Positions 1,166-24,919 of a stretch of 62,084 nt of DNA are shown in pieces. The notes below the pieces were generated by a model. The model was not told the origin of the DNA, made no database searches, and worked only from the letters and a program-made list of their open reading frames with translations. This DNA is from an uncultured Spartobacteria bacterium (lineage in GTDB: Bacteria > Verrucomicrobiota > Verrucomicrobiia > Chthoniobacterales > Chthoniobacteraceae): NCBI GenBank assembly GCA_903901425.1, contig CAIURC010000017.1:1-62084 (forward strand), written 5' to 3'. How positions within the stretch are numbered: the stretch's first letter is position 1; the number at the start of each line of letters is the position of its first letter. The position numbers and the translations under genes are program-made.

Positions 1166-1759
1166 TGACTCAAGCAAAATGGCCCCCCAAGGCCGTTCTA
1201 CGCCCGACTCCCGCTCACCCCTAGCACGAGCATGTCCGGAGAAGACGGGTTTTTAGATTACCCGTTCTTTAGGGCGGCAGTTTGTTCCTGAGGAGCGAAA
1301 ACGCCTGAAGGACTGGGCGCGTCGCCTGTAAGACATGGTCGGCGATCGGTTTGAGATCGGTGCAGCGGAGAGCCTTCCGGCTGTTGCGAATGTGCCGCTC
1401 CATCGCCTGGAGATGATCCTTGCTTCTGCTGCCCGCAGCCTCGGCTTCGAAACGCTCGACGTGCAAACTCAGGAACAGCGATTCAACGCCATGGCAGTCT
1501 TTCAGCTCTCTGGGCTTTGGCGCAGATTGCGCTCGAGACGCTCCAGAGCCTCCTTCAGTTCACGGACGCGCTTGATGTCTGGCTTCGACCCGCGGCCACC
1601 GAGCCGTGGCACACCGTCGGCCACGCTTCCTCGGGCACCAAGGCTTCACCCAAATCGCAGGAAGGCTGCAAGGTCCATGCCTCCGCCCGGGCCAAGCGCT
1701 GCCTACCGCATCCCAGAGGGTGAATACCGAACTCTTCTCACACCCCGGCCGTTCGGTTC
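1166..1759. other. No supported gene; possible decayed coding DNA on minus
   Basis: A 65-codon minus frame (1269-1466) and a helix-rich minus frame ending near 1503 (KRVRELKEALERLERNLRQ) look protein-like. Neither has a recognisable family, a convincing start, or an intact neighbour. They may be pieces of one broken gene. Nothing else is visible before the oxidoreductase that ends at 1760. Confidence 0.35.
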
Positions 1760-2884
1760 TCAGCCAATCTCCAGCACCGACTGGCTTTTCTGCGACTCCA
1801 GCGCCGCCGCAAAAATCTCGTGGGTCGCCACCGCCTCCTGCGGCGTGGCGCATCCGAACCGGCCCTCCAAAAGGCCCTCCCGTTCCGCCAAATAGGCCGC
1901 CCACATCTGCTGGATCACGTCTGGAAATCCGGGCTCGAAAATGCCGCCGGTGACCGTCTTGAACGGGGTGCCGAATCCGAGATCCGTCCGTTTCCACCAC
2001 TGCTCCTTGCCGCGTTCAAACACCTCCAGCGTCTTGGGCATGGACGTGCTGAACCGGACACCGGACTCCGTGCCAAGCACCTCGATGAACCACGTGTTGG
2101 TGGCTCCGGGCGCGAGCCGCTTCATCTCGAGACGCAACGGCACTTCCACGCCTCCCACCTCGGTCCAGCTGTGCAGCACCGCGTTGTCCCACGTGTCGCA
2201 CACGGCCATTCCGCCGCGCCCGTCAGGCCGCTGTCCGTACCCTTTCTGCAACTGCGCGTACAACCTCTTCGGACGCCACCCCAGCCGCAACGGGACATGG
2301 CAGGCGTGCATCCCGAGATCGTTCAAAACCCCGCCCTCGCCGCATGTGACCGATGACCGCTTCCAGTTGGCTGGCTTGGTTGGATCCAAATCGCTGCTGT
2401 GATGAAAACCCGATACCACCTCCAGCACCCGTCCCAACTGGCCGCCACGCGCCATCTCAAACGCGCGCTGGGCTCCGGGGAAAAACGGCATCTCGGAGCT
2501 GCACCGCACAAACCGCCCGCTGCTTTCCACGGCGGAAAGAATCCGGCGGGCCGATGCGAGATCGATCCCGAACGGTTTCTCGGCCAGCAGATCTTTGCCC
2601 GCAGCCAGCACATCGCAATAGAGTTTCTCGTGCAGGTTGTGCGGCACGGCCACGTACACCACATCCACAGCGGGATTCGCCAGCAGCTCCCGGTAATCCG
2701 CCGTTTTCTGGACGCAACTCGGGATACACTCAAACCAGGAAAGACTCGCAGGATTCAGGTCTGCGACCGCCACCAGCACCGGACGCACCGGCAGATCCGT
2801 GATCGCACACCACCGCGCAAAGGCACTCGCCATTTCCCGGCCCATCAGGCCGCCGCCAATGATTCCTACTCGGATGTCTTTCAT
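1760..2884 (-). CDS. Gfo/Idh/MocA-family NAD(P)-dependent oxidoreductase
   Basis: A 374-residue protein starting at MKDIRVGIIGGG. This glycine-rich Rossmann loop binds NAD(P). The family signature EKPFGIDLASA follows near residue 95 and supplies the conserved lysine, and the C-terminal half is the usual alpha/beta substrate domain. An upstream in-frame extension exists but overlaps glcF, so the ATG at 2884 is preferred. Members oxidise or epimerise sugars and inositols; the exact substrate cannot be read. It is the last gene of the 7542-1760 operon, five bases after glcF, which points to sugar or hydroxy-acid catabolism. Confidence 0.88.
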   Translation of the reverse strand: MKDIRVGIIGGGLMGREMASAFARWCAITDLPVRPVLVAVADLNPASLSWFECIPSCVQKTADYRELLANPAVDVVYVAVPHNLHEKLYCDVLAAGKDLLAEKPFGIDLASARRILSAVESSGRFVRCSSEMPFFPGAQRAFEMARGGQLGRVLEVVSGFHHSSDLDPTKPANWKRSSVTCGEGGVLNDLGMHACHVPLRLGWRPKRLYAQLQKGYGQRPDGRGGMAVCDTWDNAVLHSWTEVGGVEVPLRLEMKRLAPGATNTWFIEVLGTESGVRFSTSMPKTLEVFERGKEQWWKRTDLGFGTPFKTVTGGIFEPGFPDVIQQMWAAYLAEREGLLEGRFGCATPQEAVATHEIFAAALESQKSQSVLEIG

Positions 2885-2889
2885 AAATT

Positions 2890-4212
2890 TCAGTGTTTCC
2901 TTTCCGCACCCACCGGTTTCTCCGCGCGTTCGGCGCGATAAGCCCGGGCCAGCAGCGTCACGGGTTGCACCACGTCCACCGGCACACCGGCCGCCCGCAG
3001 CCCGTTGGCCACCTGCAGGTGGCAACCCGGGTTCGACGTTGCCAGAAACCGCGCGCCCGTCGCCGCAATGTGCCCCACTTTTCGCTTCAACAGCGCTCCG
3101 GACTGTTCGGGCTGGGTGATGCTGTAAACCCCGGCACTTCCACAACACCACGAGGATTCCGCCAGCTCCACCAGCCGCACCCCGGGAATCGATTTCAAAA
3201 TCTCGCGCGGTTGTTTCACCACCTTCTGGCCGTGCGCCAGATGACACGACTCATGGTACGTCACCACCGCTTCTTCTCCCGCTGCCGGTTTGCGGCATCC
3301 GATCTCCACCAGCCATTCGTGGATGTCGCGCACTTTCCGGTCCCATTCCGCCGCCCGCGCCGCGTACTCTGCGTCCCCGGCCAGCACCCGGGAATAATGC
3401 CGGAGATGCGCCCCGCATCCGCCTGCGTTCGTGATGATCGCGTCGTAGTTTTCGGGCGGCATCCGGTCGAGCATCCGGCGCGCCAGTTCCGCGGCCAGTC
3501 CGGGTTCCCCATTGTGACCGTGCAACGATCCGCAACATCCCTGCGCCGCCGGTGTATGGACCCTGCACCCGTTGGCCAGAAGCACATCCGCCGTGTCCCG
3601 GTTGATGTTGGAAAACGCGATGTCCTGAACGCACCCGGTCAGAAGCGCCACGCGGTACCGGGCCGGTCCTTCCGGCAGTTCCTCCTCGGCGATGCATTCG
3701 TCCGAGAAACACGCTGAAATCCGGGGAGTCTGCGGTTCGAGCCGCTGCAGATCCGCAGGGAGCACCCGGGTCAGCCCGAGCCGGCGCACCCACCCGTCCA
3801 GACCTGTTTTCTGGTAAATCCGCAAAACCCGCGCGACGATGCGGAGCGCCCAAGGCCGCATAAACAGGAACCGCAGGGTCAACGCCCGCCAGAGGACGCG
3901 CGCGGGCGTCTGCGGCAGCCCGGATTGTTCCACCTCCGCCCGGGCTGCCTCGAACAACCCGGCGTAATCCACGCCTGCAGGACAGGCGGTCTGACACGCC
4001 AGACACCCGAGGCAGTAGCTCATTTCGTCCGCAAACTCGCGCCCCGCCACCAGATCGCCATCCGCCACGGCGCGCATCAGGGCGATCCGGCCCCGGGGTC
4101 CGTGCCGTTCGCGCTTGGTGGCGTCAAATGTCGGGCAGGTTGGCAGACACATCCCGCAGTGCATGCACTGCTGCAGATCCGAGTAATCCAGCTGCTGGAG
4201 TGGGCCGCTCAT
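2890..4212 (-). CDS. glcF: Glycolate/lactate oxidase iron-sulfur subunit GlcF
   Basis: A 440-residue protein with two 4Fe-4S ferredoxin motifs, at C16/C19/C22/C26 and C67/C70/C73/C77. Two cysteine-rich CCG domains follow (AAQGCCGSLHGHNG and ESSWCCGSAG). No transmembrane segment is visible, so it should be cytoplasmic or peripheral. With GlcD it carries electrons from oxidation of glycolate or another 2-hydroxy acid to the respiratory chain. The glcD stop is only three bases upstream, so the two subunits are co-translated. In this operon the substrate could instead be lactate or a sugar-derived hydroxy acid. Confidence 0.93.
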   Translation of the reverse strand: MSGPLQQLDYSDLQQCMHCGMCLPTCPTFDATKRERHGPRGRIALMRAVADGDLVAGREFADEMSYCLGCLACQTACPAGVDYAGLFEAARAEVEQSGLPQTPARVLWRALTLRFLFMRPWALRIVARVLRIYQKTGLDGWVRRLGLTRVLPADLQRLEPQTPRISACFSDECIAEEELPEGPARYRVALLTGCVQDIAFSNINRDTADVLLANGCRVHTPAAQGCCGSLHGHNGEPGLAAELARRMLDRMPPENYDAIITNAGGCGAHLRHYSRVLAGDAEYAARAAEWDRKVRDIHEWLVEIGCRKPAAGEEAVVTYHESCHLAHGQKVVKQPREILKSIPGVRLVELAESSWCCGSAGVYSITQPEQSGALLKRKVGHIAATGARFLATSNPGCHLQVANGLRAAGVPVDVVQPVTLLARAYRAERAEKPVGAERKH

Positions 4213-4215
4213 GGA

Positions 4216-5598
4216 TCAATCAAAGATTTTCCCGGGATTCAACAACCCAGCCGGGTCCAGCGCCACGCGCACCTGTTTCATCAGTTCGTAACTCGCATCC
4301 CCCAGTTGCCGACGGAGCCACGGTTTTTTCGCCAGTCCCACCCCATGCTCGCCGGTGATCGTTCCACCCAGTTCCAGCGTCCGCTCCACAATCTCGTCCA
4401 ATGCCAGGTGCACTTTCCGCATCTCCTCCGTGTCCCGTTCGTCCGTCAGAAACGTCGGATGGAGGTTGCCGTCCCCCATGTGGCCGAAGGTTCCCACCTG
4501 CAGACCGTGCCGGTCCGCGATCTCTGCAATGTACGCCACCATCCGGGCCAGTTCGCTCCGGGGCACGGTCACGTCCTCCAGAATCGTGGTCGGGCGCATC
4601 CGGGCCAGCGCGGAAAACGCGCTGCGCCGCGCCGTGGCCAGCTGCTGCGCTTCCTCCACGGAACCCGCGACGCGCACCGCCCGCGCACCGCGTTCCCGCG
4701 CGATTTGTTCCATGCGCGCCGCCTCGTCCCGGACGGCTTCCGGATGCCCGTCGGTTTCCATCAACAACAACGCGGCGCAGTCTGTCGGCAGCCCCACCTT
4801 CGCGTAGTCTTCCACGCACTGGATCGTGCGCCGGTCGAGAAACTCCAGGGTGCACGGAATGATCTTGGCTGCGATGATGGCCGAAACCGTCTCAGCCGCG
4901 TCTTCCATCCGGTCATACAGAGCCAGCATGGTGCGGCGCGCAGCGGGCCTCGGCAGCAGCTTCAGCAGGACCTCGGTCACAATCCCGAGCGTCCCTTCGG
5001 AGCCGATGAACAGGTCTTTCATCGAATACCCGGCCACATCCTTCACACAGGCGTTCCCGAGCCGGACCACGCGCCCGTCGGCCATCACGACCTCCAGACC
5101 CATCACATAGTCCCGGGTCACGCCGTACTTCAACCCGCGCAGGCCGCCCGAGTTTTCTGCCACGTTCCCGCCAATGGTGCTGATCTTCATCGAACCCGGA
5201 TCGGGCGGGTAAAACAACCCGTGCACGCCCGCTGCCTCGTCGATCTTCAGCGTAATTGCCCCGGCCTGCGCCCGCAGCGTCAGGTTGTTCGGATCCACCT
5301 CCAAGATCCGGTCCATCCGGACCAGACACAGCACCACGCATCCTCCCGAGGGCACGCTCCCCCCGCTCAGCCCGGTGCCGGATCCCCGTGTCACCACGGG
5401 CACCCGGTTAGCCGCAGCCCAGCGCACCACTGCCGCCACCTGCCCGGTGTCGGCGGGAAACACCACGGCTCCCGGCCGTTCCTTGAGCGCTGCCGTGCCG
5501 TCGAATCCGTAGGGAAGGATGTCCTCGGGCCGCCAGAGGACGTTCTCCGCCCCCACCAAACCCGCCAGTTCGCTCAACGCTGTTTCGGATAATGCCAT
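4216..5598 (-). CDS. glcD: FAD-binding 2-hydroxy-acid oxidase subunit GlcD
   Basis: A 460-residue flavoprotein of usual GlcD length. The N-terminal PCMH-type FAD domain shows PVVTRGSGTGLSGGSVPSGG and PPDPGSMKISTIGGNVAENS. The C-terminal FAD-oxidase domain shows FGHMGDGNLHP and GTITGEHGVGLAKK. The ATG at 5598 (MALSETALSEL) is chosen over an upstream in-frame start because homology begins there. It oxidises glycolate, D-lactate or a related acid and passes electrons to the adjacent GlcF. A second GlcD-like gene without a partner lies at 47042. Confidence 0.93.
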   Translation of the reverse strand: MALSETALSELAGLVGAENVLWRPEDILPYGFDGTAALKERPGAVVFPADTGQVAAVVRWAAANRVPVVTRGSGTGLSGGSVPSGGCVVLCLVRMDRILEVDPNNLTLRAQAGAITLKIDEAAGVHGLFYPPDPGSMKISTIGGNVAENSGGLRGLKYGVTRDYVMGLEVVMADGRVVRLGNACVKDVAGYSMKDLFIGSEGTLGIVTEVLLKLLPRPAARRTMLALYDRMEDAAETVSAIIAAKIIPCTLEFLDRRTIQCVEDYAKVGLPTDCAALLLMETDGHPEAVRDEAARMEQIARERGARAVRVAGSVEEAQQLATARRSAFSALARMRPTTILEDVTVPRSELARMVAYIAEIADRHGLQVGTFGHMGDGNLHPTFLTDERDTEEMRKVHLALDEIVERTLELGGTITGEHGVGLAKKPWLRRQLGDASYELMKQVRVALDPAGLLNPGKIFD

Positions 5599-11616: not shown

Positions 11617-12474
11617 TCAATGGGTTGCGGGTTGAATTGATTCTGCGATCTCTGCGAGGCGCCCGCACACCTCAGCAACGGTTTCTCTAAGCGTTGAAGT
11701 GCCGGCGGTGACGCCCACTCTCTGCCCATGCTCGAACCACTCAGGCCGAAGCTCGGCGGCACGTTCCACATGGAAGACGGTCCGGCCCGCCACCTCCGCG
11801 GCCGCCACCAGTTGAAGCGTGTTGTTCGAATTTCGTCCGCCCACCACAACCAGCGTCTCGCACTCCGCCAGCAGTTCCCGGAGCGCCATTTGCCGGTTCT
11901 TGGTCGGCTGACAGACGGTGTCCACAAACCGCACCTCGGATCCCGGCCGTTCCGCGCGGATTGCTTCAACAAGCGCCAGTACCCGCTCAATGGGCTGGGT
12001 GGTCTGCGAAATCAGCCCGAGCCCTCGGTCGAAGGGGAGCGCCACAATGTCAGCCTCTTCCTGCACCACGCAGGCTTCAGGAAAATCTCCCGTGAGCCCG
12101 TTCACCTCCACGTGGCCCCGTTTCCCAATGACCACCGGGAAGAATCCAGCGTCGACGAGTCGACGCAGTTGGTTGTGGGCATGGCGCACCAAGGGACAGG
12201 TTCCGTCAGCAACTTGGCGCCCGGTTGCCCCCCAAGCCGCACGGGCAGCGTCGCTGGCACCATGGGCGGTAATCATCACCCGGTGAGTGTCTGCAGGGCG
12301 GTCCAGCCCACCTTCCCGGACCCCGGCCCGGATGAGGCGTTCACGGACAATCGGGTTGTGAACCAGTTCCCCCAGAATGGTGAGGGGTCCATGTTGGGCC
12401 ATCTGTTCCGCCTCGGCGATGGCGTCTCGGACGCCAAAGCAAAGGCCGTAATGTTCAGCGAGTTGGATGTGCAT
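11617..12474 (-). CDS. ispH: 4-hydroxy-3-methylbut-2-enyl diphosphate reductase IspH
   Basis: A 285-residue protein of normal IspH length. The three iron-sulfur cysteines are C12 (LCFGVRDA), C93 (GTCPLV) and C188 (DTVCQPTKNRQ). Substrate-binding histidines H39, H71 and H121 are present, as is catalytic E123 (HVEVNG in place of the usual HPEVxG). GGRNSNNT near 212 binds the diphosphate. It catalyses the last step of the non-mevalonate pathway, making IPP and DMAPP. The region just upstream of its ATG holds an inverted repeat shared with the neighbouring winged-helix operon. Whether this is the only copy in the genome cannot be told here. Confidence 0.93.
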   Translation of the reverse strand: MHIQLAEHYGLCFGVRDAIAEAEQMAQHGPLTILGELVHNPIVRERLIRAGVREGGLDRPADTHRVMITAHGASDAARAAWGATGRQVADGTCPLVRHAHNQLRRLVDAGFFPVVIGKRGHVEVNGLTGDFPEACVVQEEADIVALPFDRGLGLISQTTQPIERVLALVEAIRAERPGSEVRFVDTVCQPTKNRQMALRELLAECETLVVVGGRNSNNTLQLVAAAEVAGRTVFHVERAAELRPEWFEHGQRVGVTAGTSTLRETVAEVCGRLAEIAESIQPATH

Positions 12475-13622: not shown

Positions 13623-14246
13623 TCAAGGTTCTTTGCAGTGCCCATCCGTTCGGGTTTCCGGTTTCAAAAGAAGCCAGAGCGCAAGCATTCCAGGGTCATG
13701 CGCGCCCCTGCTCTTTTCCGGAAACATCCGGGCGCGTCCCACTTTGCACGGAGCTGGAAGGAACTGCTCCAAGGCCGCCTGTGCCCCTGCTGCGGCCGCC
13801 GCAGCCATCCCGCTCTCCGATGCCGCGAGGCGCGCAGCAATCGCCTTCGCGCTGTCGAGAATCGTCTTGTCGCCCAGACTGGCCTTGCCCCGCTGCATCA
13901 TCGCGACAATCGCCTGCTCCAGCATCTCGGCAAGCCTCGCGGAGGTAACCGACTCCTGGCCGGAAGACGCCTTTGAAAAACTGAGCAGCGCCGTGGCGAG
14001 CAGCGTTCCCAGGCTCGAACCCGTCGCAAACAGCGTGGCCTTCGCGAGCTCGGCAAATGCCGTGCCCAGATCCGGGCACCGGCTCAAATCAACGGCCGCC
14101 ATTCTTTCCAAAACGCGAGCCAGCATGGATCCGGTGTCGCCGTCCCCAAGAACGGCATCTGCAGCGTTGAGCTCCGCTTCGATTCGGGCCATGCGGGAAT
14201 GCCCAAGGGCCACGGTTTTCTGAAGTGCGCGGAGGTCGAGTGCCAT
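13623..14246 (-). CDS. dhaL: Dihydroxyacetone kinase L subunit (DhaL-type, nucleotide-binding)
   Basis: A 207-residue protein. AVLGDGDTGSMLARVLERMA near residue 31 carries the Mg-nucleotide-binding aspartates of DhaL. FATGSSLGTLLATALLSFSK near residue 75 matches the following conserved helix. It phosphorylates a triose or short keto-sugar bound by DhaK. The start at ATG 14246 is four bases after the dhaK stop. It is last in the lyase/symporter/sialidase/DhaK operon, so the bound substrate may be a product of that pathway rather than dihydroxyacetone from glycerol. No PTS partner DhaM is seen nearby. Confidence 0.9.
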   Translation of the reverse strand: MALDLRALQKTVALGHSRMARIEAELNAADAVLGDGDTGSMLARVLERMAAVDLSRCPDLGTAFAELAKATLFATGSSLGTLLATALLSFSKASSGQESVTSARLAEMLEQAIVAMMQRGKASLGDKTILDSAKAIAARLAASESGMAAAAAAGAQAALEQFLPAPCKVGRARMFPEKSRGAHDPGMLALWLLLKPETRTDGHCKEP

Positions 14247-14250
14247 GGTT

Positions 14251-15246
14251 TCAGATTTTCCAAAAGGGACACCGTGCCGATGCGAGGAGCAGTTCCTCCA
14301 GTTCAGGATCCAACAGGTGCACCGAGAGGGAGGCACCTCCCATTTCCATGGAAGTCACGTAATTGCCGACCAGCGGTTGCACGACTGTGATTCCCTGTCC
14401 GCTGAGAATCTGGTGCGTCCTTCGGTAAAGAATGAAGAGTTCCTCCAACGGCGTTGCACCCAACCCGTTCACAAGCACGGACACCCGGCTTCCAGCCCCA
14501 ATCGGACGGTCTGCGAGTAGGCGTTCCCACATCTCCTCCACCACCGCATCGGCTTTTCCCAGCTTCGCCCGCCAGATCCCCGGTTCTCCGTGAATACCCA
14601 TGCCCATCTCGATCTCGTCGTTGCCGATCTGGAAATTGGGAACGTCGGAGGTCGGCACCCTGCAGGGAGTGAGCGCTACGCCGATTGTGCGTGTCGCCTC
14701 CACCGCTTTCCGTGCCACCCGGGCAACCTCCTCCAGATTTGCTCCGCTCTCCGCCGCTGCGCCCGCCGCCTTGTAGGCATACACGATTCCTGCCACCCCG
14801 CGTCGTTTTTCCGATTCCGTCGGAGAGGCGCTCGCAATGTCGTCGGTACCCAGCACGGTCAGCGTCGGAATTCCCTCGCCGGCAAGAAGCTCACAGGCCA
14901 TGTCGAAATTCATCCGGTCGCCTCCGTAGTTGCCGTACAGACAGAGCACGCCAGCTCCATGGTCTGCGAGGCGAATGGCTTCCATGCAACTGCCGGCATT
15001 GGGGCCTTCAAACACATTGCCGATCGAACAGGCATCCAGCAGTCCTTCCCCGACGTAGCCGGTAAACAGTGGCAGGTGTCCACTTCCGCCGCCCGATACG
15101 ATCCCGACTTTCCCGGATCTCCCGGGATGCGCCCGGCAGATCACTCGGCCGCTGGCGCCTTCGCGTCGAAGGCTCGGGTTGGCAAGAACCAGGCCCTCGA
15201 GCAGTTCGTCGACGTAATCAGCCGGATGGTTGATGAGCTTTTTCAT
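14251..15246 (-). CDS. dhaK: Dihydroxyacetone kinase K subunit (DhaK-type, substrate-binding)
   Basis: A 331-residue protein of usual DhaK length, starting MKKLINHPADYVDELLEG. GIVSGGGSGHLPLFTGYVG (from residue 48) is the signature substrate loop, and MGIHGEPG contains H219, the residue that forms a covalent hemiaminal with the keto substrate. VLGTDDIASA is also conserved. A GTG two codons upstream is an alternative start. It works with the downstream DhaL. Related two-subunit kinases also act on erythrulose and similar four-carbon ketoses, which would fit this operon better than glycerol metabolism. Confidence 0.92.
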   Translation of the reverse strand: MKKLINHPADYVDELLEGLVLANPSLRREGASGRVICRAHPGRSGKVGIVSGGGSGHLPLFTGYVGEGLLDACSIGNVFEGPNAGSCMEAIRLADHGAGVLCLYGNYGGDRMNFDMACELLAGEGIPTLTVLGTDDIASASPTESEKRRGVAGIVYAYKAAGAAAESGANLEEVARVARKAVEATRTIGVALTPCRVPTSDVPNFQIGNDEIEMGMGIHGEPGIWRAKLGKADAVVEEMWERLLADRPIGAGSRVSVLVNGLGATPLEELFILYRRTHQILSGQGITVVQPLVGNYVTSMEMGGASLSVHLLDPELEELLLASARCPFWKI

Positions 15247-15289
15247 CGGCACATGACGATGGTGTCTTCCATGTTCGTGCAGATGCTGA

Positions 15290-16459
15290 TCACGGGAACA
15301 GACTCCTGATGGGAATCACTGCGAGTTCCGCACTGTTGTTGTTCCAAAGCTCGCGGCCTGTCCCCACCCGCCCCACGTTGCCGCCCGTGTTCGAGTACCC
15401 CACATAGAGACTGCCCCCGCGTTCCACGGCATAGGGGTAGGAAAGGGCCGCCTTGGGATGCGATTCCACCTCCGTGCCTTCCATGACGGCGTGCCGGATC
15501 ACAAAGACTTTGCTGAATTCCTTCTCACCTGGCCTGCTCACCGCAAGCGTCAACGGCGCCCGCCGTTGCCCGCTGTCGGCGGTGGTGGTGCACACCAGAT
15601 ACCGCTGGCCGTTGCTCAGAATCCCGGCGCTGGGTTTGCTGGTGGTCATAGGCAGGTTGCTGGGCTGCATGGGCTCCCATGTCCGGCCGTAATCCAAGCT
15701 CCTCGCCACAAGCGCCTGCGCCCTTTCCCCGTACCGGGAGATGCTCGTCACCTCGCAGCCCTGGACAAGGATCGCCGATTCACCCCACATCTTTTTGACA
15801 CTGGGCCCGGGCGGAATCGAAACCACGTCCCAACGGGTGAAGTCTTCGCCACGGCTAATCGCAACCGCGGCAGGATTTTGCCCACCCACCTGCAAACCGG
15901 CCATGATCCAGTTGCCGTCATCCATTTTTTGGGGTTCCTGCATGGGCCAGAAACCGGCCTCGATCACCGTGCCTTTCGGAAGCCATTGCTGGCTTTGCTC
16001 ATCGAGCAGATAAGCCCGGGTGTGAACGCCTTGCATGATTCCCGTGTAGGCGCCTTGAAACGCCCAGAGCCTTCCTTTGTGAGAAAGGAACGCTCCATGG
16101 CTCACACCCACAGGCCCTTCCCCGGCATCGATCGTCCGCACCGCACCCCATGTCCGGCCGTCATCGTCACTCACGCAGAAGCGGGCTTCCTCCGTGTCTG
16201 TGTTTTCACCGCCCTGGTTATGGCCAAAGGACGCGTACAGCCGCCCCTTGTGGAAACAGAGGGCGACCCCGTGGAGAAACCGGTAGCCGTCCCTTTGAAA
16301 CTCGTAGGGTTTGATCACGTTGAAGCGCAGATCTCCAAGAACCGTAATTTCGGCTGTGCCGGGCACAGGGAGCGGATCCCTCCAGAGACGGGCTTCCGTT
16401 TCCGCAGCGAAGACCGAGCCGGCACCGCAAAGAAGCGTAAGAAGCAGTTTTATTTTCAT
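15290..16459 (-). CDS. Secreted sialidase-like (BNR/Asp-box) six-bladed propeller protein
   Basis: A 389-residue protein with signal peptide MKIKLLLTLLCGAGSVFAAE. Asp-boxes are visible as SDDDGRTWG near residue 98 and SLDYGRTWEP near residue 265, the repeats that mark sialidase-type propellers. The classical YRIP-type arginine motif is not evident, so activity on sialic acid is uncertain and another uronic or keto-sugar glycoside is possible. Its operon partners, a lyase of the N-acetylneuraminate lyase family and a sodium symporter, support release and uptake of a keto-acid sugar. Confidence 0.8.
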   Translation of the reverse strand: MKIKLLLTLLCGAGSVFAAETEARLWRDPLPVPGTAEITVLGDLRFNVIKPYEFQRDGYRFLHGVALCFHKGRLYASFGHNQGGENTDTEEARFCVSDDDGRTWGAVRTIDAGEGPVGVSHGAFLSHKGRLWAFQGAYTGIMQGVHTRAYLLDEQSQQWLPKGTVIEAGFWPMQEPQKMDDGNWIMAGLQVGGQNPAAVAISRGEDFTRWDVVSIPPGPSVKKMWGESAILVQGCEVTSISRYGERAQALVARSLDYGRTWEPMQPSNLPMTTSKPSAGILSNGQRYLVCTTTADSGQRRAPLTLAVSRPGEKEFSKVFVIRHAVMEGTEVESHPKAALSYPYAVERGGSLYVGYSNTGGNVGRVGTGRELWNNNSAELAVIPIRSLFP

Positions 16460-16484: not shown

Positions 16485-17480
16485 TCAGAGGTCGGGCCGT
16501 TTCCGCCACCAGGAGGCGAGCGCGGAACTGGTAATGGCACTCCACGGGCCGAACACGGCGGCACCGAGGGCTGCGGCCGGGCTTTGCAGGACGTTGAAGG
16601 CGAGCCCCGTCGCCATGCCGCCATTCTGGATGCCGACTTCCAGCGCGCAGGTGCGCGCGTCGGTTTCATTCAGGCCGCTCCAGCGCCCTCCCCAGTACCC
16701 GAGGAGATAGCCGGTGGCGTTGTGACAGGCGGCAGCGGCAAAGACAGCAAGGCCGACGGAGAGCAGTTGTTCCCGCGAGAGCGCGATCGTGACGCCGACG
16801 ATCGTGCAAATGGCAAACATCGCCATATAGGGCAGCACGCGCACGAGTCTCTTTGCCACACCAGGCAGCAGGCGTTGCACACTGAGGCCGATGAGCAATG
16901 GCACGATGACCATTTTCAAAATGGAGAACATCATCGCTCCCGCATCGATGGGCAACTCCGCCCCAGAGAGCCACTTCATCGCAAACGGCGTGACCAAGGG
17001 CGAGATGAGTGTGGAGACAGCCGTGACCGTCACGGAAAGCGGCACATTCACCCGGGCGAGCAGCGAGATGACATTGGAAGAGGTCCCGCTGGGAACCGAG
17101 CCAATCAGGATCAGACCGGTCGCGATCTCGCCGTGCAGACCAAAGAGCCACGCAAAACACCACCCGCCCAGCGGCATGATGGTGTAATGCAGGACGCAAC
17201 AGAGCACGACTCCACGGGGCATCACAAAGACGCGACGAAAGTCGTCGAGTGTCAGCGTGAGCCCCATACCGAGCAGGATCAGTTGCACCAAGGGCGTGAT
17301 CGCAGACTTCAAGGGGAAGCCGCCCCATGCAGTGAAAGCCTCGGGAAACACCAGCGCCGCGGCACCCACCGCCAACACTACAAAGCTGAATCCAAGTCCC
17401 TGCAGTGCCCGCACCCTGCGGGATGCAAGTGCCAGAATCAGAAACAGCGCAACTAGGGGAAGACCAGTCTGGGGGGACAT
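16485..17480 (-). CDS. Sodium-dependent BASS-family symporter
   Basis: A 331-residue membrane protein with nine or ten hydrophobic segments. LILIGSVPSGTSSNVISLLA near residue 140 and PLSVTVTAVSTLISPLVTPF match the crossover helices of bile acid:sodium symporters, where sodium is bound. The family carries organic anions including bile acids, pantoate and keto acids. Between a lyase gene and a sialidase-like gene it is the obvious candidate to import the acidic sugar that the lyase cleaves. The substrate is inferred from context only. Confidence 0.88.
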   Translation of the reverse strand: MSPQTGLPLVALFLILALASRRVRALQGLGFSFVVLAVGAAALVFPEAFTAWGGFPLKSAITPLVQLILLGMGLTLTLDDFRRVFVMPRGVVLCCVLHYTIMPLGGWCFAWLFGLHGEIATGLILIGSVPSGTSSNVISLLARVNVPLSVTVTAVSTLISPLVTPFAMKWLSGAELPIDAGAMMFSILKMVIVPLLIGLSVQRLLPGVAKRLVRVLPYMAMFAICTIVGVTIALSREQLLSVGLAVFAAAACHNATGYLLGYWGGRWSGLNETDARTCALEVGIQNGGMATGLAFNVLQSPAAALGAAVFGPWSAITSSALASWWRKRPDL

Positions 17481-17495: not shown

Positions 17496-18434
17496 TTAAC
17501 TCATCGACTCGGCAAGGCGAAGCACGGCTTCCAAGGCCGGCTTGATCTTTGCCCGTTGCGCCTCCGTGGCCGGACGCATCGGCATCCGCGGGAGGCCAGC
17601 ATCGACTCCCTGCAACGACTGGGCGTACCGGATGCAGGCAGGGAGGTTGTAATGATCCATCGCATTCCAGAGGTTGAGGATCGCCTCGTGCAGCAGGCGC
17701 GCTCCCGCGTGATCGCCCTGTGCCACCGCATCCCGCAGGACAGCCGTTGCCCGCGGAATCGCGGCGGGCGTGGCCGCGATCACGCCGGGGGTTCCGAGGC
17801 AGAAGGAGGGGTACATCAGTGCATCCACCGCGCTGTAAATTTTGCGGTCTTTGGGGGCATGAACCATCAAATCGGCGAAGAGTTTCAAATCTCCCGCGCT
17901 TTGTTTGATCCCGAGGATCCCTGGCACCTCGTTCATGAGTCGGACCGTGAGCTCTGGCGAAAGATAACACCAGTGGATTACGTTGTAGATGATAAGTGGG
18001 ATTCCTGTTTCCTCATGAATCACCCGAAAATGCTCGATCATCATCTCATCGTCAGGTCGGAAAAGATAATGGACCGGCGTGATCTGAACCGCATCGACGC
18101 CGAGGTCTTGAACAGCCTGGATGGCCCGGATCGCCTGCCGGGTGCTGTCCACAATCGCGCTCGCAATGAGCGGCATGTCCGTGGGCATGACATTGCGCAC
18201 TTCGCTGACGCAGGCCCGGAGTTCGTCGGGAGCGAGCGTCTGGCCCTCCCCGGTGGAACCGCCCACCGCGAGGCTGTCGGCCCTTTCACGGACCAGAAAG
18301 TCGACCTGGCTCCGGATGGATCCCGTCTGCAGTTCGCCGTCGTGGGCGAACGGCGTTGTCATGGGGGAGATGACTCCAAAAGGGACTCTGCGCGAGATGC
18401 TGGAGGAAGACAGGGGTTTTGTTTGATCTGGCAT
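17496..18434 (-). CDS. DHDPS/N-acetylneuraminate-lyase family aldolase
   Basis: A 312-residue TIM-barrel protein. VGGSTGEGQTLAPDE near residue 57 is the family's GxxGE keto-acid-binding loop, IIYNVIHWCY holds the catalytic tyrosine, and GIKQSAGD near residue 176 holds the Schiff-base lysine. Members cleave or form 2-keto acids such as N-acetylneuraminate, KDG-type sugars or dihydrodipicolinate. The usual YNxP is here YNVI, so it is not a typical DapA. Being first in an operon with a symporter and a sialidase-like protein, catabolic cleavage is the likely role. Confidence 0.87.
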   Translation of the reverse strand: MPDQTKPLSSSSISRRVPFGVISPMTTPFAHDGELQTGSIRSQVDFLVRERADSLAVGGSTGEGQTLAPDELRACVSEVRNVMPTDMPLIASAIVDSTRQAIRAIQAVQDLGVDAVQITPVHYLFRPDDEMMIEHFRVIHEETGIPLIIYNVIHWCYLSPELTVRLMNEVPGILGIKQSAGDLKLFADLMVHAPKDRKIYSAVDALMYPSFCLGTPGVIAATPAAIPRATAVLRDAVAQGDHAGARLLHEAILNLWNAMDHYNLPACIRYAQSLQGVDAGLPRMPMRPATEAQRAKIKPALEAVLRLAESMS

Positions 18435-18487
18435 AGCGTGGGTGGGTGCAGTACATCCTTCCTCGGCCCGCCGAGCGTTTTCAATTC

Positions 18488-19369
18488 ATGGATTGCGCAG
18501 CTGGCCTCTTTGCTCCCGCCCGCATACCCCAATGCCTGATTTCGCATATTTCTGACATGACTCCTGATGAACTGCGCCGGCTTTCGGAGCTCCGATCCCT
18601 TCTTGAAGGCCTCGCGGCACGCCATGCCGCCCACCACGCCAAGGCATCGCCGCGGCGTCTGGAACAGCTCCGCGTGATTCTGGCTCAGCTGATCCGGACG
18701 CTGCGGGTTCGTGACTATCCCGCCTTCCGGGAAGCTGACCTCGAACTGCACGAAGCCATCATTGATCTCGCACAGGTTCCCACCCTCAAATCCTCATGGC
18801 GTCTCGCATGGCAGGGGTTGCTCGATTTTCACGCACAGGGTTTTGAGGACTATTTCCCAGACTCACGCGTCCTCGCAGAAGAACACGAGCATCTGGTTGA
18901 GACCATTGCACTCGGGGATCCCGCTGCAGCCGAAGATGCCGCCCGAACCCATGTGGAGGCTGTCTGGCTTCGCGTCGCCGAGAAGTCGGATGCTTCCACA
19001 GGCCAGAACCATGATCCGCTCCGACGCGCCATCGCCCATCTTGCATTCCGCCTGCATTGCCCGCTCAAATTGACCTCGGTGGCACGGGACGTCGCCTTTA
19101 CTAGCCCGGGCAACCTTTCCCGCCTCTTTCGCCAGAACCACGGACTCAGTTTCCAAGCGTATCTTCAGAGGCTCCGTCTCGAAAAAGCCGCCGAACTCCT
19201 CCTCTCCACCAGAATCCCCGTGGCACGGATTGCAAAGCGCGTGGGCTACCGGGATGTCTCCCGGTTCGGTCAGCATTTTAAACGCAGATTTGGGAACACT
19301 CCCGCCGGGTTCCGCGCCTGCTGCCCTGCCAAAACAGGCTCGCCCTCCGTTGGAAAAGCGATTCTTTAA
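18488..19369 (+). CDS. Hybrid regulator: GntR-type FCD sensor domain fused to AraC HTH
   Basis: About 293 residues from ATG 18488; a GTG at 18446 gives a longer form, but it lies only 11 bp from the divergent lyase start. The N-terminal part is an FCD domain: ELRSLLEGLAARHAA, ADLELHEAIIDLA, EEHEHLVETIALGD and ARTHVE supply the Asp/His metal ligands. The C-terminal 100 residues are an AraC DNA-binding domain with LTSVARDVAFTSPGNLSRLF, then VARIAKRVGYRDVSRFGQHF. FCD normally follows a GntR winged helix, which is absent here. It should control the divergent lyase/symporter/sialidase/DhaKL operon. Confidence 0.85.
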   Translation: MDCAAGLFAPARIPQCLISHISDMTPDELRRLSELRSLLEGLAARHAAHHAKASPRRLEQLRVILAQLIRTLRVRDYPAFREADLELHEAIIDLAQVPTLKSSWRLAWQGLLDFHAQGFEDYFPDSRVLAEEHEHLVETIALGDPAAAEDAARTHVEAVWLRVAEKSDASTGQNHDPLRRAIAHLAFRLHCPLKLTSVARDVAFTSPGNLSRLFRQNHGLSFQAYLQRLRLEKAAELLLSTRIPVARIAKRVGYRDVSRFGQHFKRRFGNTPAGFRACCPAKTGSPSVGKAIL

Positions 19370-19420: not shown

Positions 19421-20851
19421 TCACGCAAACAGATCGGTGATCACCCGGGCGGATTCCACGCCCGTCAGCCGCTGGTCGAGTCCCTGAAACCGGAAACTCA
19501 GTTTTTCGTGATCCAGCCCGAGCAGAGCGAGGAGCGTGGCGTGGAAATCGCGGACATGCACCTTGTCGCGGACGGCCTTGTAGCCGACCTCGTCCGTCTC
19601 GCCGTAGTGGACTCCGCCCTTGACCCCACCCCCTGCCATCCATGCAGTGAACGCGTGTGGGTTGTGGTCCCGCCCAGGCTTGGCCGCCTTCTGCGCCACG
19701 GGCGTCCGCCCGAACTCGCCAGCCCACACCACCAGCGTGTCCTTCAACATCCCGCGTTGTTCCAAGTCCGCCAGGAGGGCCGCCACGGGCTGGTCCGCCT
19801 CCAGCGCGAACCCGCGGTGGTTGCCCACCAGATCCGAATGACAATCCCAGCTCTGCTGGTTCTCCATGCCACCAGAATAGATCTGCACAAACCGTACGCC
19901 GCGTTCCACCATCCGGCGCGCCATCAGACATTGGGCCGCGAAGTGTCCGCAATGTTGGGTCCCAATTCCATACGCAGTTTTGATGTGCTCAGGTTCTTCG
20001 TGGATGGCGAAGGCTTCCGGAGCCGCGGTTTGCATCCGGTAAGCAAGTTCGAAACTCTCGATCCGCGCCGATAACTCGCTCTCAATGGGGCTTTCCGCAA
20101 GGCCACGCCGGTTGAGCCGCCCCAGCAAATCCAACTGCGCACGCTGGGTGTTCCCGGCAATTTCCGGCTTCAGGTTTTCAATCGGTTCGCCCGACGGCTT
20201 CAGCCAGGTGCCTTGGTAGACGCTCGGCAGGAATCCCGCCCCCCAGTTCAGCGCGTTGCCTTTGGGCAACCCGCGGTTCAATGGATCGCTCATCACCACA
20301 AAACTCGGAAGGCTCTCCGCCTCGGACCCGAGTCCGTAGGTCACCCAGGAACCGACGCAGGGCGACCCCATCCGCGTGATCCCGGTGTTCATCATGAAGA
20401 GGGCCGGGCTGTGGTTGTTGGATCCGGTCCAACACGAATGCACAAATGCCATCTTGTCCACGTGCCGGTTGAGATGGGGAAACAGGTCGCTGCCCCAGGT
20501 GCCGCTGGCTCCATGCTGCGCCCACTCAAACGGCGACTTCATCAGCGCCCCGGCGGAGCCCGGGAAAAAGCCGGTCTTGGGGTCGAACCCCTCCAGTGTC
20601 TGCCCATCGCGTTTCTGCAACTCGGGCTTGTAATCCCAGGTGTCCACCTGGCTCGGACCGCCATTCGCAAAGATCCAGATCACGGATTTTGCCCGGGGCT
20701 GGAGCGGCGGCCGCTTCGGGGCCAGCGGGTTCCCGGACGCAGCCATGGCATTCCATCCGGTTTTGTCGAGCAGCGCGGCGCAGGCCAGCCAGCCAAGGCC
20801 GCCTCCGGCCCGCATCAGTGCTTCGCGACGGGAAAAGAAGGTGGGGTTCAT
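19421..20851 (-). CDS. DUF1501 protein, twin-arginine exported
   Basis: A 476-residue protein starting MNPTFFSRREALMRAGGGLG, a twin-arginine signal. VIWIFANGGPSQVDTWDYKP near residue 55 and the C-terminal VVWAGEFGRTPVAQ are the DUF1501 landmarks; the fold resembles alkaline phosphatase/sulfatase. The family is very common in Planctomycetota and Verrucomicrobiota and nearly always sits beside a DUF1549/DUF1553 cytochrome, as here. Biochemical function is not established. The ATG at 20851 is preferred; the longer in-frame form overlaps the upstream gene. It is 37 bases after that gene's stop. Confidence 0.92.
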   Translation of the reverse strand: MNPTFFSRREALMRAGGGLGWLACAALLDKTGWNAMAASGNPLAPKRPPLQPRAKSVIWIFANGGPSQVDTWDYKPELQKRDGQTLEGFDPKTGFFPGSAGALMKSPFEWAQHGASGTWGSDLFPHLNRHVDKMAFVHSCWTGSNNHSPALFMMNTGITRMGSPCVGSWVTYGLGSEAESLPSFVVMSDPLNRGLPKGNALNWGAGFLPSVYQGTWLKPSGEPIENLKPEIAGNTQRAQLDLLGRLNRRGLAESPIESELSARIESFELAYRMQTAAPEAFAIHEEPEHIKTAYGIGTQHCGHFAAQCLMARRMVERGVRFVQIYSGGMENQQSWDCHSDLVGNHRGFALEADQPVAALLADLEQRGMLKDTLVVWAGEFGRTPVAQKAAKPGRDHNPHAFTAWMAGGGVKGGVHYGETDEVGYKAVRDKVHVRDFHATLLALLGLDHEKLSFRFQGLDQRLTGVESARVITDLFA

Positions 20852-20888
20852 GGGGATTGTGTGGGGGGTTCGGCGTGAAGGGAGGCTG

Positions 20889-23800
20889 TTACGGCAGATA
20901 CGCAAACTCGTTGAGTTCCAGAAGGACCTGGCACCACTCGGCCAGTCCCGTCTTTCCGCCGGACCGCGCAGATTCCGCCGACAGAAATTCAACGGCCATC
21001 TGTCGCTCATCCGGCTCCGGCTCGCGTCCGAGGGCGAGTCGGTAGCCGGCTGCGACCTGTGCCGCAATGGGCGCATTGTCTCCGGTCAGTTTCCGGATCC
21101 GGCTGGCGAAAGCTGTGGCGGAATCGCGAACCAACCGGCTGTTCAGGAGCATGAGAGCCTGGGGCGTCACGGTGGTCGTGGGCCGGATCCCCTGGCTAAC
21201 CAAGGGCTCGGGCTGGTCAAAGCTCACCATGGTGTTGAGCAGTTTGCTCCGTTTCACCCGCAGATAGACCGACCGCCGCGGCGTTTCCTCGGCCGACACC
21301 GGCGGCCCGTACAGGGTCGGATCCAGACGCCCGCTCACTGCCAGAACGCTGTCCCGCACCGCTTCAGCCTCCAACCGGCGCGGAACGCGCCGCAGGAAAT
21401 ACTGGTTGTCGGGATCGGCAGCGATCGCTTCTGGATCTTTGATGCAGGCCTGCCGGTACGCCGCGCTGGTCATCAAAAGCCGGTGCATCGCCTTAATGCC
21501 GCCGCCGGTCTTTAGAAACTCCGAAGCCAGCCAGTCCAACAGCTCAGGATGCGTGGGCGCGACTCCGCTTTTCCCAAAATCGTTGGGCGATGAGACAATG
21601 CCGCGTCCGAAATGATGTTGCCAGAGCCGGTTGACAAACACCCGGGCCGACAACGCGCCCGCGCCCGACTCCGCATCCAGAATCCATTCCGCGAGCTGAC
21701 GGCGTTTTCCGGCATATGTCGCACCCGCGGGCGGATTCCAGTTCCAGCGGGTTTCCGGGGCGCGGCTCAGTGCCTGCAGGAAGCCCGGGGTGGCCACGCC
21801 ATCCTTGAGCCCGACGTTGCCTCGTTTGAGGAAAAAAGTCTCTTTGTAGGTCTCCACCGCACCGCCCGCTGTGTGATACCGGACCGCCGGAAAACTTTCT
21901 GATCCCACGAGCACCTTGGTCAGCCCTTTGGGTTCCGCGCCGGCCAGGGACACCCTTGCTGCATCCCGTTTGCGGTACTCCGGATCCCGCCGGAACCACC
22001 AACCTTCGAGGTGCTGCTGTGCCTCGAACGCCGTGCCTGGCCGTTGCTTCTGCTGGAGGAGCGCAGCGACACGTTCGTCCATCCATTCGGCGTCCAGTTT
22101 GGAATCGGCTCCAAGCAGGAACGCGAGTCGGATCCTGCCGGGCGCTGCCTTGCCTCCCTGCCCGACCTCCATCTGGACCCTCCAATGGCCTGAACCCAAC
22201 TGGGCCTGCTCAAATTTCCATGCGGCAACGCCTCCTTTTGCGGTTCCTTTCCAGCCTTTGCCCTCCGGAAGCAGATCCGCTCCGGAACTTCCAGCGATCG
22301 CGTTCGCCAGATTCACCGCTGTCCATGAGCCATCCGGATTCTCCCGCTCCACGCGGACCGTTCGGACTTCGAATGTGCCGTTCTTGGCGTGGCCAGCGCC
22401 ACCACCCGGAAGATCGCGGTCGGACATGGCCTCGACACGGAACCCGTGCACATTCTCGCAGGCCAGCGCTCCTTCCCACTGCAGTTTTCCGGATGCCGGC
22501 GCGGCTTTGGAAGAGAGCGACCCATCTTCTCTGCGCTCCCAAGTGCCAGGCTGCGGCGCTGCGCCCCATACCGCCCAGCCTTCCACCGCAGGAAAGCTCG
22601 GAAGGTCGCGCTCCAAAAACTGTTCCAAGGTCCGGCGCAGCTCGGCTTCACGCTGGCGCACCGAGGTCGTGGCAGCGTCCAGTTTTCCCCGCCACTCGGC
22701 TTTTTTCCGGGCCGTCTCTTCCGGGTTCAAATCCAACTCGGGCTCGCTCCGAACGGTTCCGGTGAATGTGGCGAGCATCCGGTAATAATCACGGCTGGGG
22801 ATCGGATCGAACTTGTGGTCATGACACCGGGCACAGCCCACGGTGAGCCCCAGAAATGCGGAGCCGGTGGTGGACAGCATGTCGTCCATGTCCTCGTACC
22901 GGACCCGTTCGAGTTCGTTCACGGTGATCTGGGTCGGAAACACGCCCAGGGTCAGGAACGCGGTCGCAGCAAGGGAACGCACATCGCCGGGCCGGTACTC
23001 GTCGGCAGCCAGTTGCAGCCGGACAAACTCCGGGAACGGCAGGTCGCGGTTGAACGCATCGATCAGAAAGTCGCGGTAATGATACGAGCCGGTCCGGTCG
23101 TAATCCTGCTCAAAGCCGGAACTCTCGCCATACCGGGCCACATCCATCCAATGCCGCGCCCAGCGTTCGCCGTACGCGGGCCGAGCCAGCAGCCGGTCAA
23201 TGAGCCGCTCCCAGGCACCTGGCTTCTGGTCCTCCAAAAATTCTGTCACTTCCTCCGGAGTCGGCGGAAGCCCGGTCAGATCCAGCGTGGCCCGGCGAAC
23301 CAGCGTCCTGCGGTCGGCTTCGGGAGCGGGTCCTTTCCCGGCGGCTTTTGCAGCCAAAAACCTGTCTACCGGATGGGCGGCAGTGCCCGGAGGAACCGCT
23401 GGCGCACCGAGGGGCTGGAACGCCCACCAACTGCGGTCTTCGTCCGTCACTTTGCTCCGGTCCCGTTCCTCTTTCCGGCCGGCCACGAGGGGTGCAGAAT
23501 ACGGCGCGCCGTTTCCGATCCATGCCGCGATTTTTTCAATCACGCTGTCCGGGAGGCGCGGCTTGTTCTCGGGCATGTAGGGCTCCTCCTCGTGCCGGAG
23601 CATCTTCAGGAGCCGGCTTTTCTCGGGATGAAACGGCACCACGGACGGGCCGTCGGCGCCCCCCTTGAGAAGCCCCTCCCGCACCGCCAGATCGAACTCG
23701 CCCTTGGTTTTTGCGCCACCGTGGCATTTCAGGCAGTGGTCATTGAGGACGGCCCGGATTTCAGCATCAAAAGCTCCGAGCCCCGCCTTCATTCGGGCTG

Positions 23801-23909
23801 CGTGATCGTCGGGCAGATCCGCTGCGGACAGGGCGCCGGGCAGGGAAATAAACCAGAACAGGCTCGGGACAACGGGACGCAACAACCGGGACAGGCGGGA
23901 TTCGCTCAT
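20889..23909 (-). CDS. PSD1-type cytochrome c protein with DUF1549 and DUF1553
   Basis: A 1006-residue exported protein. After the signal peptide, DHCLKCHGGAKTKGEFDL holds the CxxCH heme site at C59/C62/H63 (planctomycete cytochrome C domain). DUF1549 follows at about 165-370 (VRRATLDLTGLPPTPEEV), then a variable beta-rich middle of about 300 residues, then DUF1553 near 690-960 (WQHHFGRGIVSSPNDFGKSG). It forms the canonical pair with the DUF1501 gene downstream. The pair is thought to act in periplasmic carbohydrate breakdown, but no activity is proven. Confidence 0.93.
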   Translation of the reverse strand: MSESRLSRLLRPVVPSLFWFISLPGALSAADLPDDHAARMKAGLGAFDAEIRAVLNDHCLKCHGGAKTKGEFDLAVREGLLKGGADGPSVVPFHPEKSRLLKMLRHEEEPYMPENKPRLPDSVIEKIAAWIGNGAPYSAPLVAGRKEERDRSKVTDEDRSWWAFQPLGAPAVPPGTAAHPVDRFLAAKAAGKGPAPEADRRTLVRRATLDLTGLPPTPEEVTEFLEDQKPGAWERLIDRLLARPAYGERWARHWMDVARYGESSGFEQDYDRTGSYHYRDFLIDAFNRDLPFPEFVRLQLAADEYRPGDVRSLAATAFLTLGVFPTQITVNELERVRYEDMDDMLSTTGSAFLGLTVGCARCHDHKFDPIPSRDYYRMLATFTGTVRSEPELDLNPEETARKKAEWRGKLDAATTSVRQREAELRRTLEQFLERDLPSFPAVEGWAVWGAAPQPGTWERREDGSLSSKAAPASGKLQWEGALACENVHGFRVEAMSDRDLPGGGAGHAKNGTFEVRTVRVERENPDGSWTAVNLANAIAGSSGADLLPEGKGWKGTAKGGVAAWKFEQAQLGSGHWRVQMEVGQGGKAAPGRIRLAFLLGADSKLDAEWMDERVAALLQQKQRPGTAFEAQQHLEGWWFRRDPEYRKRDAARVSLAGAEPKGLTKVLVGSESFPAVRYHTAGGAVETYKETFFLKRGNVGLKDGVATPGFLQALSRAPETRWNWNPPAGATYAGKRRQLAEWILDAESGAGALSARVFVNRLWQHHFGRGIVSSPNDFGKSGVAPTHPELLDWLASEFLKTGGGIKAMHRLLMTSAAYRQACIKDPEAIAADPDNQYFLRRVPRRLEAEAVRDSVLAVSGRLDPTLYGPPVSAEETPRRSVYLRVKRSKLLNTMVSFDQPEPLVSQGIRPTTTVTPQALMLLNSRLVRDSATAFASRIRKLTGDNAPIAAQVAAGYRLALGREPEPDERQMAVEFLSAESARSGGKTGLAEWCQVLLELNEFAYLP

Positions 23910-24079: not shown

Positions 24080-24919
24080 CTACCGGCCGGCACGGTACTC
24101 GCTGGGACTCATTCCAACCACGCGCTTGAACGCCCGAGAAAAGGCCAGCCCGTTTTCGTAGCCGACATCCTGGGCCACAGCCTCCATTTTTTCGTCGCTG
24201 CTCTCGAGCATCTGTTTGGCGCGCTGGATCCGAATAAAAGCGAGGTGTTGCATTGGGCTGCGGCCGAGTTCCCGCTGGCAGAGCCGGCGCAGGTGTTCAC
24301 CGCTCATGTGACAGGCGGCGGCGAGCGCATCCAGATCCCAGGGTTCCACAAGGCGGCGCCCCACCTCCTCCCAGAGCTTCCAGACGCGGTCATGCACCTG
24401 CCACGGTTGCACCATCCTCCGCACCATTCCCTGGACCAAGCCCACCCAGTGGTGGATGAGTTTCGGGTCCCTGCTTGCCGCCCATTCCGCGAGAAGCCCT
24501 TCCAGGGCGCGGCCAAACTCGGTGGCGCCCTCCCGGATCCGGACGGGAGACTCTGCGCCGACGAGTGGAGCCACCGGGGCGGGTTCATCGTACCGCACCC
24601 AACCGATCCGCCAGGGCCTGCCTTTGACCGCGTAAAATGCGTTCACGACGCGGGGCGGCGCCATGCAAACCATCCCCTCGGTGACACGCTGCCACCGGCC
24701 CTCGAGCAGGACCCGGCCTTCGCCCCCCAGACAGGCCATGACAAAGCTACCCCCCGGCCGCATCCGAACCCGGCGGTAAGGCGCGGTGGCGATGTCCATC
24801 CCGAGGCGCGCGATGCGGTGGGCAGCGAGTTCCGGGCATTCGCCGGCCTCCACCACGCGGCGGGAACTGCCCGGGCCGTCGATGGTGGTTTCGGCAAGGT
24901 GAATGTGGATTTCAGCCAT
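24080..24919 (-). CDS. AraC-family transcriptional regulator
   Basis: A 279-residue protein. The N-terminal cupin-like part is seen around VRMRPGGSFVMACLGGEGRV. The C-terminal DNA-binding part has LDALAAACHMSGEHLRRLCQ and MEAVAQDVGYENGLAFSRAF, followed by SPSEYR. It is divergent from the giant cytochrome gene at 25004, with 84 bp between starts, and its stop lies 170 bp from the start of the PSD1/DUF1501 operon. It probably controls one or both, responding to an extracellular sugar product. No operator repeat was identified with confidence. Confidence 0.9.
   Translation of the reverse strand: MAEIHIHLAETTIDGPGSSRRVVEAGECPELAAHRIARLGMDIATAPYRRVRMRPGGSFVMACLGGEGRVLLEGRWQRVTEGMVCMAPPRVVNAFYAVKGRPWRIGWVRYDEPAPVAPLVGAESPVRIREGATEFGRALEGLLAEWAASRDPKLIHHWVGLVQGMVRRMVQPWQVHDRVWKLWEEVGRRLVEPWDLDALAAACHMSGEHLRRLCQRELGRSPMQHLAFIRIQRAKQMLESSDEKMEAVAQDVGYENGLAFSRAFKRVVGMSPSEYRAGR

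Follow-up and report, generated by a model that had tools for sequence, protein, structure and literature searches.

The window analysed here is a stretch of 62,084 nucleotides from an uncultured Spartobacteria bacterium. It carries, on the plus strand at 18557..19369 (the probable true CDS, with domains from Pfam and the start taken from relatives), a gene for a 270-residue regulator in which an FCD sensor domain is joined to an AraC-type DNA-binding domain, and on the minus strand a divergent operon whose first gene encodes a DHDPS-family aldolase (17496..18434; PF00701, E 1.6e-53). The aldolase gene is followed by genes for an SBF family symporter (PanS-like, 16485..17480; PF01758, with NF047939 below its cut-off), a BNR_2 protein of the sialidase fold with a signal-peptide-like N-terminus (15290..16459; PF13088, E 1.2e-20), and DhaK-like and DhaL-like dihydroxyacetone kinase subunits (14251..15252, PF02733, and 13623..14336, PF02734, respectively). 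Residues 1-15 of the aldolase are not conserved among relatives, and its true start may lie downstream of 18434. We do not call the BNR_2 protein a sialidase because its matches to PDB sequences were weak (best E 0.16). A PADLOC search gave no match.

The open frame beginning at 18488, which an earlier note on this DNA had taken as the gene, has 293 residues. Pfam matched FCD (PF07729) to residues 32-157 with an E value of 8.4e-20 (71.9 bits against a cut-off of 24.3) and HTH_18 to residues 203-276 with an E value of 2.2e-22 (79.6 bits against 33.6), and the sole further match was HTH_AraC. Neither a GntR domain (PF00392) nor, at E values up to 10, a cupin-type AraC_binding domain (PF02311) was found by Pfam in this frame. 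In the window, the FCD sensor domain spans 18581..18958 (+) and the AraC-type DNA-binding domain with its two HTH motifs (PF12833, PF00165) spans 19094..19315 (+), with an interdomain linker at 18989..19015 (+). The earlier note had proposed FCD and AraC domains in one chain and the absence of the GntR HTH; both proposals hold, the two Pfam scores being far above chance and the predicted fold (see below) in agreement.

In the relatives L053, L054, L055, L058, and L063, an in-frame stop codon lies 5-8 codons before the equivalent ATG, so the regulator probably starts at the ATG at 18557 and not at 18488 as noted earlier; the first 23 residues of the longer frame probably correspond to leader DNA. 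An N-terminal HTH would not fit in, because the upstream neighbor is the DHDPS gene on the opposite strand, annotated to start at 18434. We also considered that a GntR helix had been overlooked upstream and rejected this, since the upstream frames contain no such domain and stops sit just before the start in relatives. The window genome encodes 10 FCD proteins and the other nine (9/9) all carry a GntR HTH; the domain swap is therefore specific to the FCD-AraC gene. Among the loci from Verrucomicrobiota and from the window's own genome, all of the other FCD frames (18/18) have a match to an N-terminal helix. In contig C119 of the same genome (L008, 1-2169, minus strand), a GntR-FCD regulator continues in a single frame into PSCyt1 and PSCyt2 (DUF1549), which is either an unusual fusion or a lost stop codon.

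An AlphaFold model of the regulator was made with a 28-row alignment (A2), from which L061, with its diverged N-terminus, was left out. The model (mean pLDDT 87.4, pTM 0.77) consists of a helical bundle (residues 3-148) and a two-HTH domain (residues 154-255), joined by a stretch of lower confidence (pLDDT 65 for residues 141-150). When this predicted model was compared by VIA-align, the FCD half matched the inducer domain of DhdR with Z 20.5 over 135 residues, DgoR with Z 18.1 (30% identity), NanR with Z 15.9, and Zn-bound TM0439 with Z 13.7, and the AraC half matched AraT with Z 17.5 and the AraC DNA-binding domain with Z 13.6. The all-helical FCD fold is thus present in the predicted structure. 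The earlier note had named two results that would speak against an FCD half, a failing profile and a different all-helical sensor at the N-terminus; the region scored as FCD, and its predicted structure agreed with the FCD fold of DhdR.

The Zn ligands of NanR are Asp172, His176, His222, and His244 (PMC8012715). The regulator has D61 (18737-18739), H65 (18749-18751), H110 (18884-18886), and H132 (18950-18952), all within 18737..18952 (+), and the D61-x3-H65, H110, H132 spacing (4/45/22) is nearly that of NanR (4/46/22). These four residues and R13 are kept in all full-length fusions aligned (34/34), while the rest of the protein diverges to 33-37% identity. Judging from this spacing and conservation, we predict that D61, H65, H110, and H132 are metal ligands of the Asp/His/His/His type, which would place the domain in the metal-binding subgroup of FCD domains; the key residues claimed for the sensor half in the earlier note are borne out to this extent. 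FCD domains also serve in dimerisation, and that of PdhR even carries the name "dimerization domain," which would be in keeping with an FCD half that does not sense and merely dimerises the AraC half of a functional regulator. We regard this as unlikely, given that the four ligands and R13 are retained throughout so diverged a family.

Full-length FCD-AraC proteins were found in 7 of 97 near relatives (G000, G034, G036, G012, G016, G082, and G076), with two copies each in G036 and G016, and in 5 or more of the 387 genomes sampled from the phylum (292 bits or more, against 99 bits for the next matches, which are lone AraC domains), the latter count being a lower bound as at most six candidates were scored per genome. 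These figures agree with the word "rare" used for the architecture in the earlier note. One further FCD-AraC protein (L178) was found among 57 genomes of the class. A scan covering 84,980 species, each represented by a single genome, returned 79 loci, 27 of which contain a total of 28 fusion frames, and these are labelled as Verrucomicrobiota, one Kiritimatiellales, one Planctomycetota, and one "Paceibacterota" MAG. The fusions fall into two clades; members of clade A are 45-75% identical to the window protein, those of clade B 33-37%. The fusion of the Candidatus Paceibacterota MAG (L080) is a clade-A member with 50-53% identity to the window protein, and its contig may be mis-binned.

As the window belongs to a draft assembly (224 contigs), the fusion could in principle be an assembly artefact or a one-off gene accident. 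We consider this extremely improbable: the 28 fusion frames lie on 27 contigs of many projects, further genomes add to them, and the two halves are conserved together. Both the artefact and the one-off fusion were rejected on the evidence of these many relatives. In the tree of FCD domains, a single branch separates the halves of the fusions from 19 GntR-FCDs (SH-aLRT 99), although several branches are long and two rows represent one gene twice (L017, L047). The free quick tree of the AraC halves needed two changes, with one outsider inside the fusions, but keeping all fusions together gave a more likely tree (p-AU 0.83); of the 95 other AraC rows, these trees used the 55 that came first in the file rather than the best-scoring ones. 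A single old fusion event in Verrucomicrobiota and neighboring phyla fits both the FCD and the AraC trees. Independent fusions in other lineages were not found; within the frames of the collected loci, matches to the FCD model carried only a GntR helix or an AraC domain of this same family. A search of plasmids returned 33 records, none of which covered 80% of the query.

Locus L063, on a contig shared with L042, encodes one regulator of each clade, A at 4124-4909 (+) and B at 1422-2228 (-), on the two sides of a BNR gene at 2794-4038 (-). Orphan fragments in L050 (3150-3392), L073 (6031-6180), and L103 (5968-6120) resemble just the C-terminal 30-55 residues of the AraC half, with 78-82% identity, and are apparently remnants of decayed or duplicated copies.

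In the 18 clade-A loci of the species scan, neighbors similar to those of the window include DHDPS (11 loci), BNR (10), SBF (8), and DhaK (3), and at least one of BNR, DHDPS, and SBF occurs in 16 of these loci, some of which are incomplete. The link between regulator and operon persists in L056, L059, L060, and L062, where the aldolase is a distant DHDPS paralogue (23-30% identity). In clade B, a BNR_2 gene adjoins the regulator in four of the five loci scanned by Pfam (L068, L069, L071, and L110, but not L065) and an SBF gene is present in three of nine loci; the outlying fusion member L131 also has a BNR_2 neighbor. Judging from this linkage, BNR_2 proteins, SBF symporters, and DHDPS-family aldolases are the likely targets of the regulator. 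The control of acidic-sugar catabolism envisaged in the earlier note would be compatible with such neighbors (the aldolase family, the symporter, and BNR_2).

Conserved blocks stand out when the 170 bp preceding the clade-A start codons are aligned. The pattern GCATA-N17-GCATA, with one mismatch at most in all, occurs no more than 60 bp upstream of the gene in 16 of the 18 clade-A relatives (L061 was left out of these regions), compared with a mean of 0.04 and a maximum of 1 in 300 dinucleotide shuffles, although the repeats were discovered on the same related sequences that were later used for the counts. No other repeat period from 15 to 32 exceeded a count of 1 among the 18 regions. From these blocks we predict three half-sites on the plus strand: O3 (18532..18548; ATGC-N7-CGCATA), which matches YGATTTSGCATA with two mismatches at most in 17 of 18 regions; O2 (18510..18526; TTGC-N7-CGCATA), 22 bp before O3 in the same orientation, the O2-O3 pair being found with one mismatch at most in 16 of 18; and O1 (18419..18435), near the start of the divergent operon, found with one mismatch at most in 14 of 18. 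O3 ends 8 bp before the start codon of the regulator, and O1 overlaps the annotated DHDPS start in the window. The distance between O1 and O3 is 111-113 bp in 13 of the 14 regions with O1 and 88 bp in L058. The predicted 17-bp half-sites are bipartite, with a TG box and a GCATA box: in a table of 48 sites, which excludes L055 (no repeats) and four O1 sites with three or more mismatches, G is found at -14 in 48/48 and T before this G in 39/48, and the sites end in GCATA or something close to it. These blocks are noncoding: they lie at distances from the start that differ by numbers not divisible by three, and the likely start of the divergent gene lies beyond O1 in L051, L056, and L058. Footprinting had been suggested for 18435-18487, which is slightly off, the conserved sites being 18419-18435 and 18510-18548. 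A consensus scan detected no sigma-70-like promoter. A site at 12003-12014 with one mismatch was taken as chance, as it lies inside the frame 11617-12474.

Beyond the regions used for discovery, the bare repeat occurs once in the 5.1-Mb window genome (G000), at the FCD-AraC gene. Genome-wide, the bare pattern was not enriched in 14 genomes, with 14 sites compared with 27 for its reversed control, so that such a short pattern is of little weight by itself. Its longer form was found without mismatch in 3 of 97 relatives, each time before an FCD-AraC gene. With one mismatch, it was found at eight sites in seven of these genomes: four at the regulator, one, a second site of G034 (C236), before a LamG+BNR_2 gene (L194, 3271-5151), one in a coding frame (G012:C39), and two weaker ones in G059 and G075. 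G478 has three tandem copies (L184, 7598-7646) before an operon with genes for DHDPS, SBF, a sulfatase, URO-D, and BNR, whereas its regulator (L178/L185) is unlinked to this operon and has no repeat upstream; the repeats are thus tied to the target, not to the regulator gene alone. The upstream repeat is also missing in clade B, L055, and L131, and no shared direct repeats were found upstream of clade-B genes (best count 2/14). The G478 operon (L184, 2-7554, minus strand) has its SGSH-like sulfatase and URO-D family protein between the symporter and BNR genes, which hints at a sulfated glycan as the possible substrate.

What the sequences themselves show is the two domains, the predicted ligand residues, the recurrence of this architecture in relatives, the repeats and their conservation, and the linkage to the operon. 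We consider it likely that the protein is a ligand- and metal-responsive AraC-type regulator of the DHDPS-SBF-BNR_2-dhaK-dhaL operon that acts via paired half-sites. As a one-component regulator, it would bind a small ligand, probably an acidic sugar derivative, with its FCD half via a bound divalent metal. The FCD half would also dimerise, and the C-terminal AraC half would bind bipartite half-sites in pairs, each pair forming a direct repeat with a 22-bp spacing (O2 and O3 in tandem), with a flexible linker that might let the two-fold dimer reach direct repeats, as in AraC. Besides the divergent operon, the regulator probably controls its own gene too, because O3 ends so close to its start codon. 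As a guess from gene content, the ligand might be the product of the BNR_2 protein, imported by the SBF symporter and cleaved by the aldolase, with the aldehyde passing to the kinase.

As for the sign of control, which we infer along with dimerisation, the metal, and the ligand class, we judge ligand-dependent, AraC-like activation of the operon about twice as likely as pure repression. The position of O2-O3 upstream of the operon favors activation and that of O3 beside the regulator start favors autorepression, while O1 at a kept distance would allow looping and, at the operon start, would also suit repression. A repressor would, without ligand, occupy O1, O2, and O3 and block both promoters or start regions, perhaps through a loop of ~110 bp, until released by the ligand, as for many FCD-GntR proteins. 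We hold this to be possible but doubtful: O3 ends 8 bp short of the regulator start, O1 sits on or close before the start of the divergent gene, the spacing of O1 and O3 is conserved, and NanR, an FCD protein, is described as a repressor relieved by its ligand (PMC8012715), but O2-O3 show the tandem direct-repeat layout of AraC-type activators upstream of the operon, and the three copies in G478 are all upstream of the operon. Activation by tandem O2-O3 also enters a wider and tentative idea, to which we would give only limited credence, that an undescribed regulator family in Verrucomicrobiota and relatives was born once when an AraC protein gained an FCD sensor and that it acts entirely in the manner of AraC: a metal- and ligand-gated FCD dimer would switch the DNA between an O1-O2/O3 loop (~110 bp) that silences the sialidase-fold operon and tandem O2-O3 binding that activates it, the FCD domain acting as a portable switch.

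The FCD domain is mostly known from proteins in which a GntR helix precedes it. The FCD-type GntR regulators DhdR, DgoR, NanR, and TM0439 have the FCD fold and the Asp/His/His/His ligands in common with FCD-AraC, but they carry an N-terminal GntR winged helix, whereas FCD-AraC has none and its DNA-binding domain is C-terminal and AraC-type. That two-HTH domain, which has about 100 residues in AraC/XylS proteins, is shared with AraC, XylS, and RhaS. AraC/XylS regulators likewise lie divergent from their own operons and bind bipartite half-sites in direct repeat, as predicted here at 22 bp; the repeats of XylS and MekR are 21 bp when computed from the printed sites (PMC4514859), and the two-box geometry of half-sites has been published for AraC and XylS. 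The predicted operator layout is AraC-like, not GntR-like. The sensor of AraC/XylS regulators is the cupin-type AraC_binding domain, in contrast to the FCD domain of this family. Escherichia coli XylR, whose chains match the AraC half of the regulator, has an AraC domain with a LacI/GalR-type sensor and is similar in taking its sensor from another family, but that sensor has a different fold and XylR is not an FCD protein. FCD domains, AraC domains, and a foreign sensor on an AraC domain (XylR) are thus already known, and FCD as that sensor is a new variant. We found no paper on the FCD+AraC architecture in the open literature, though it may stand unremarked in domain-database lists, supplements, or subscription papers.

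A conserved FCD-AraC family tests the portability of the FCD switch and signal transfer with the domain order reversed; if the proposal is true, FCD would be a portable switch that signals to a DNA-binding domain on either side. It also supplies a predicted operator and predicted targets in environmental bacteria in which gene regulation has received little study, and a handle on the substrates imported via BNR_2-SBF-DHDPS clusters. On the other side of the regulator, the window contains on the minus strand (19421-23909 and 24080-24919) a DUF1501 gene and a large planctomycete-cytochrome-type gene next to another AraC protein, one with the usual cupin sensor.
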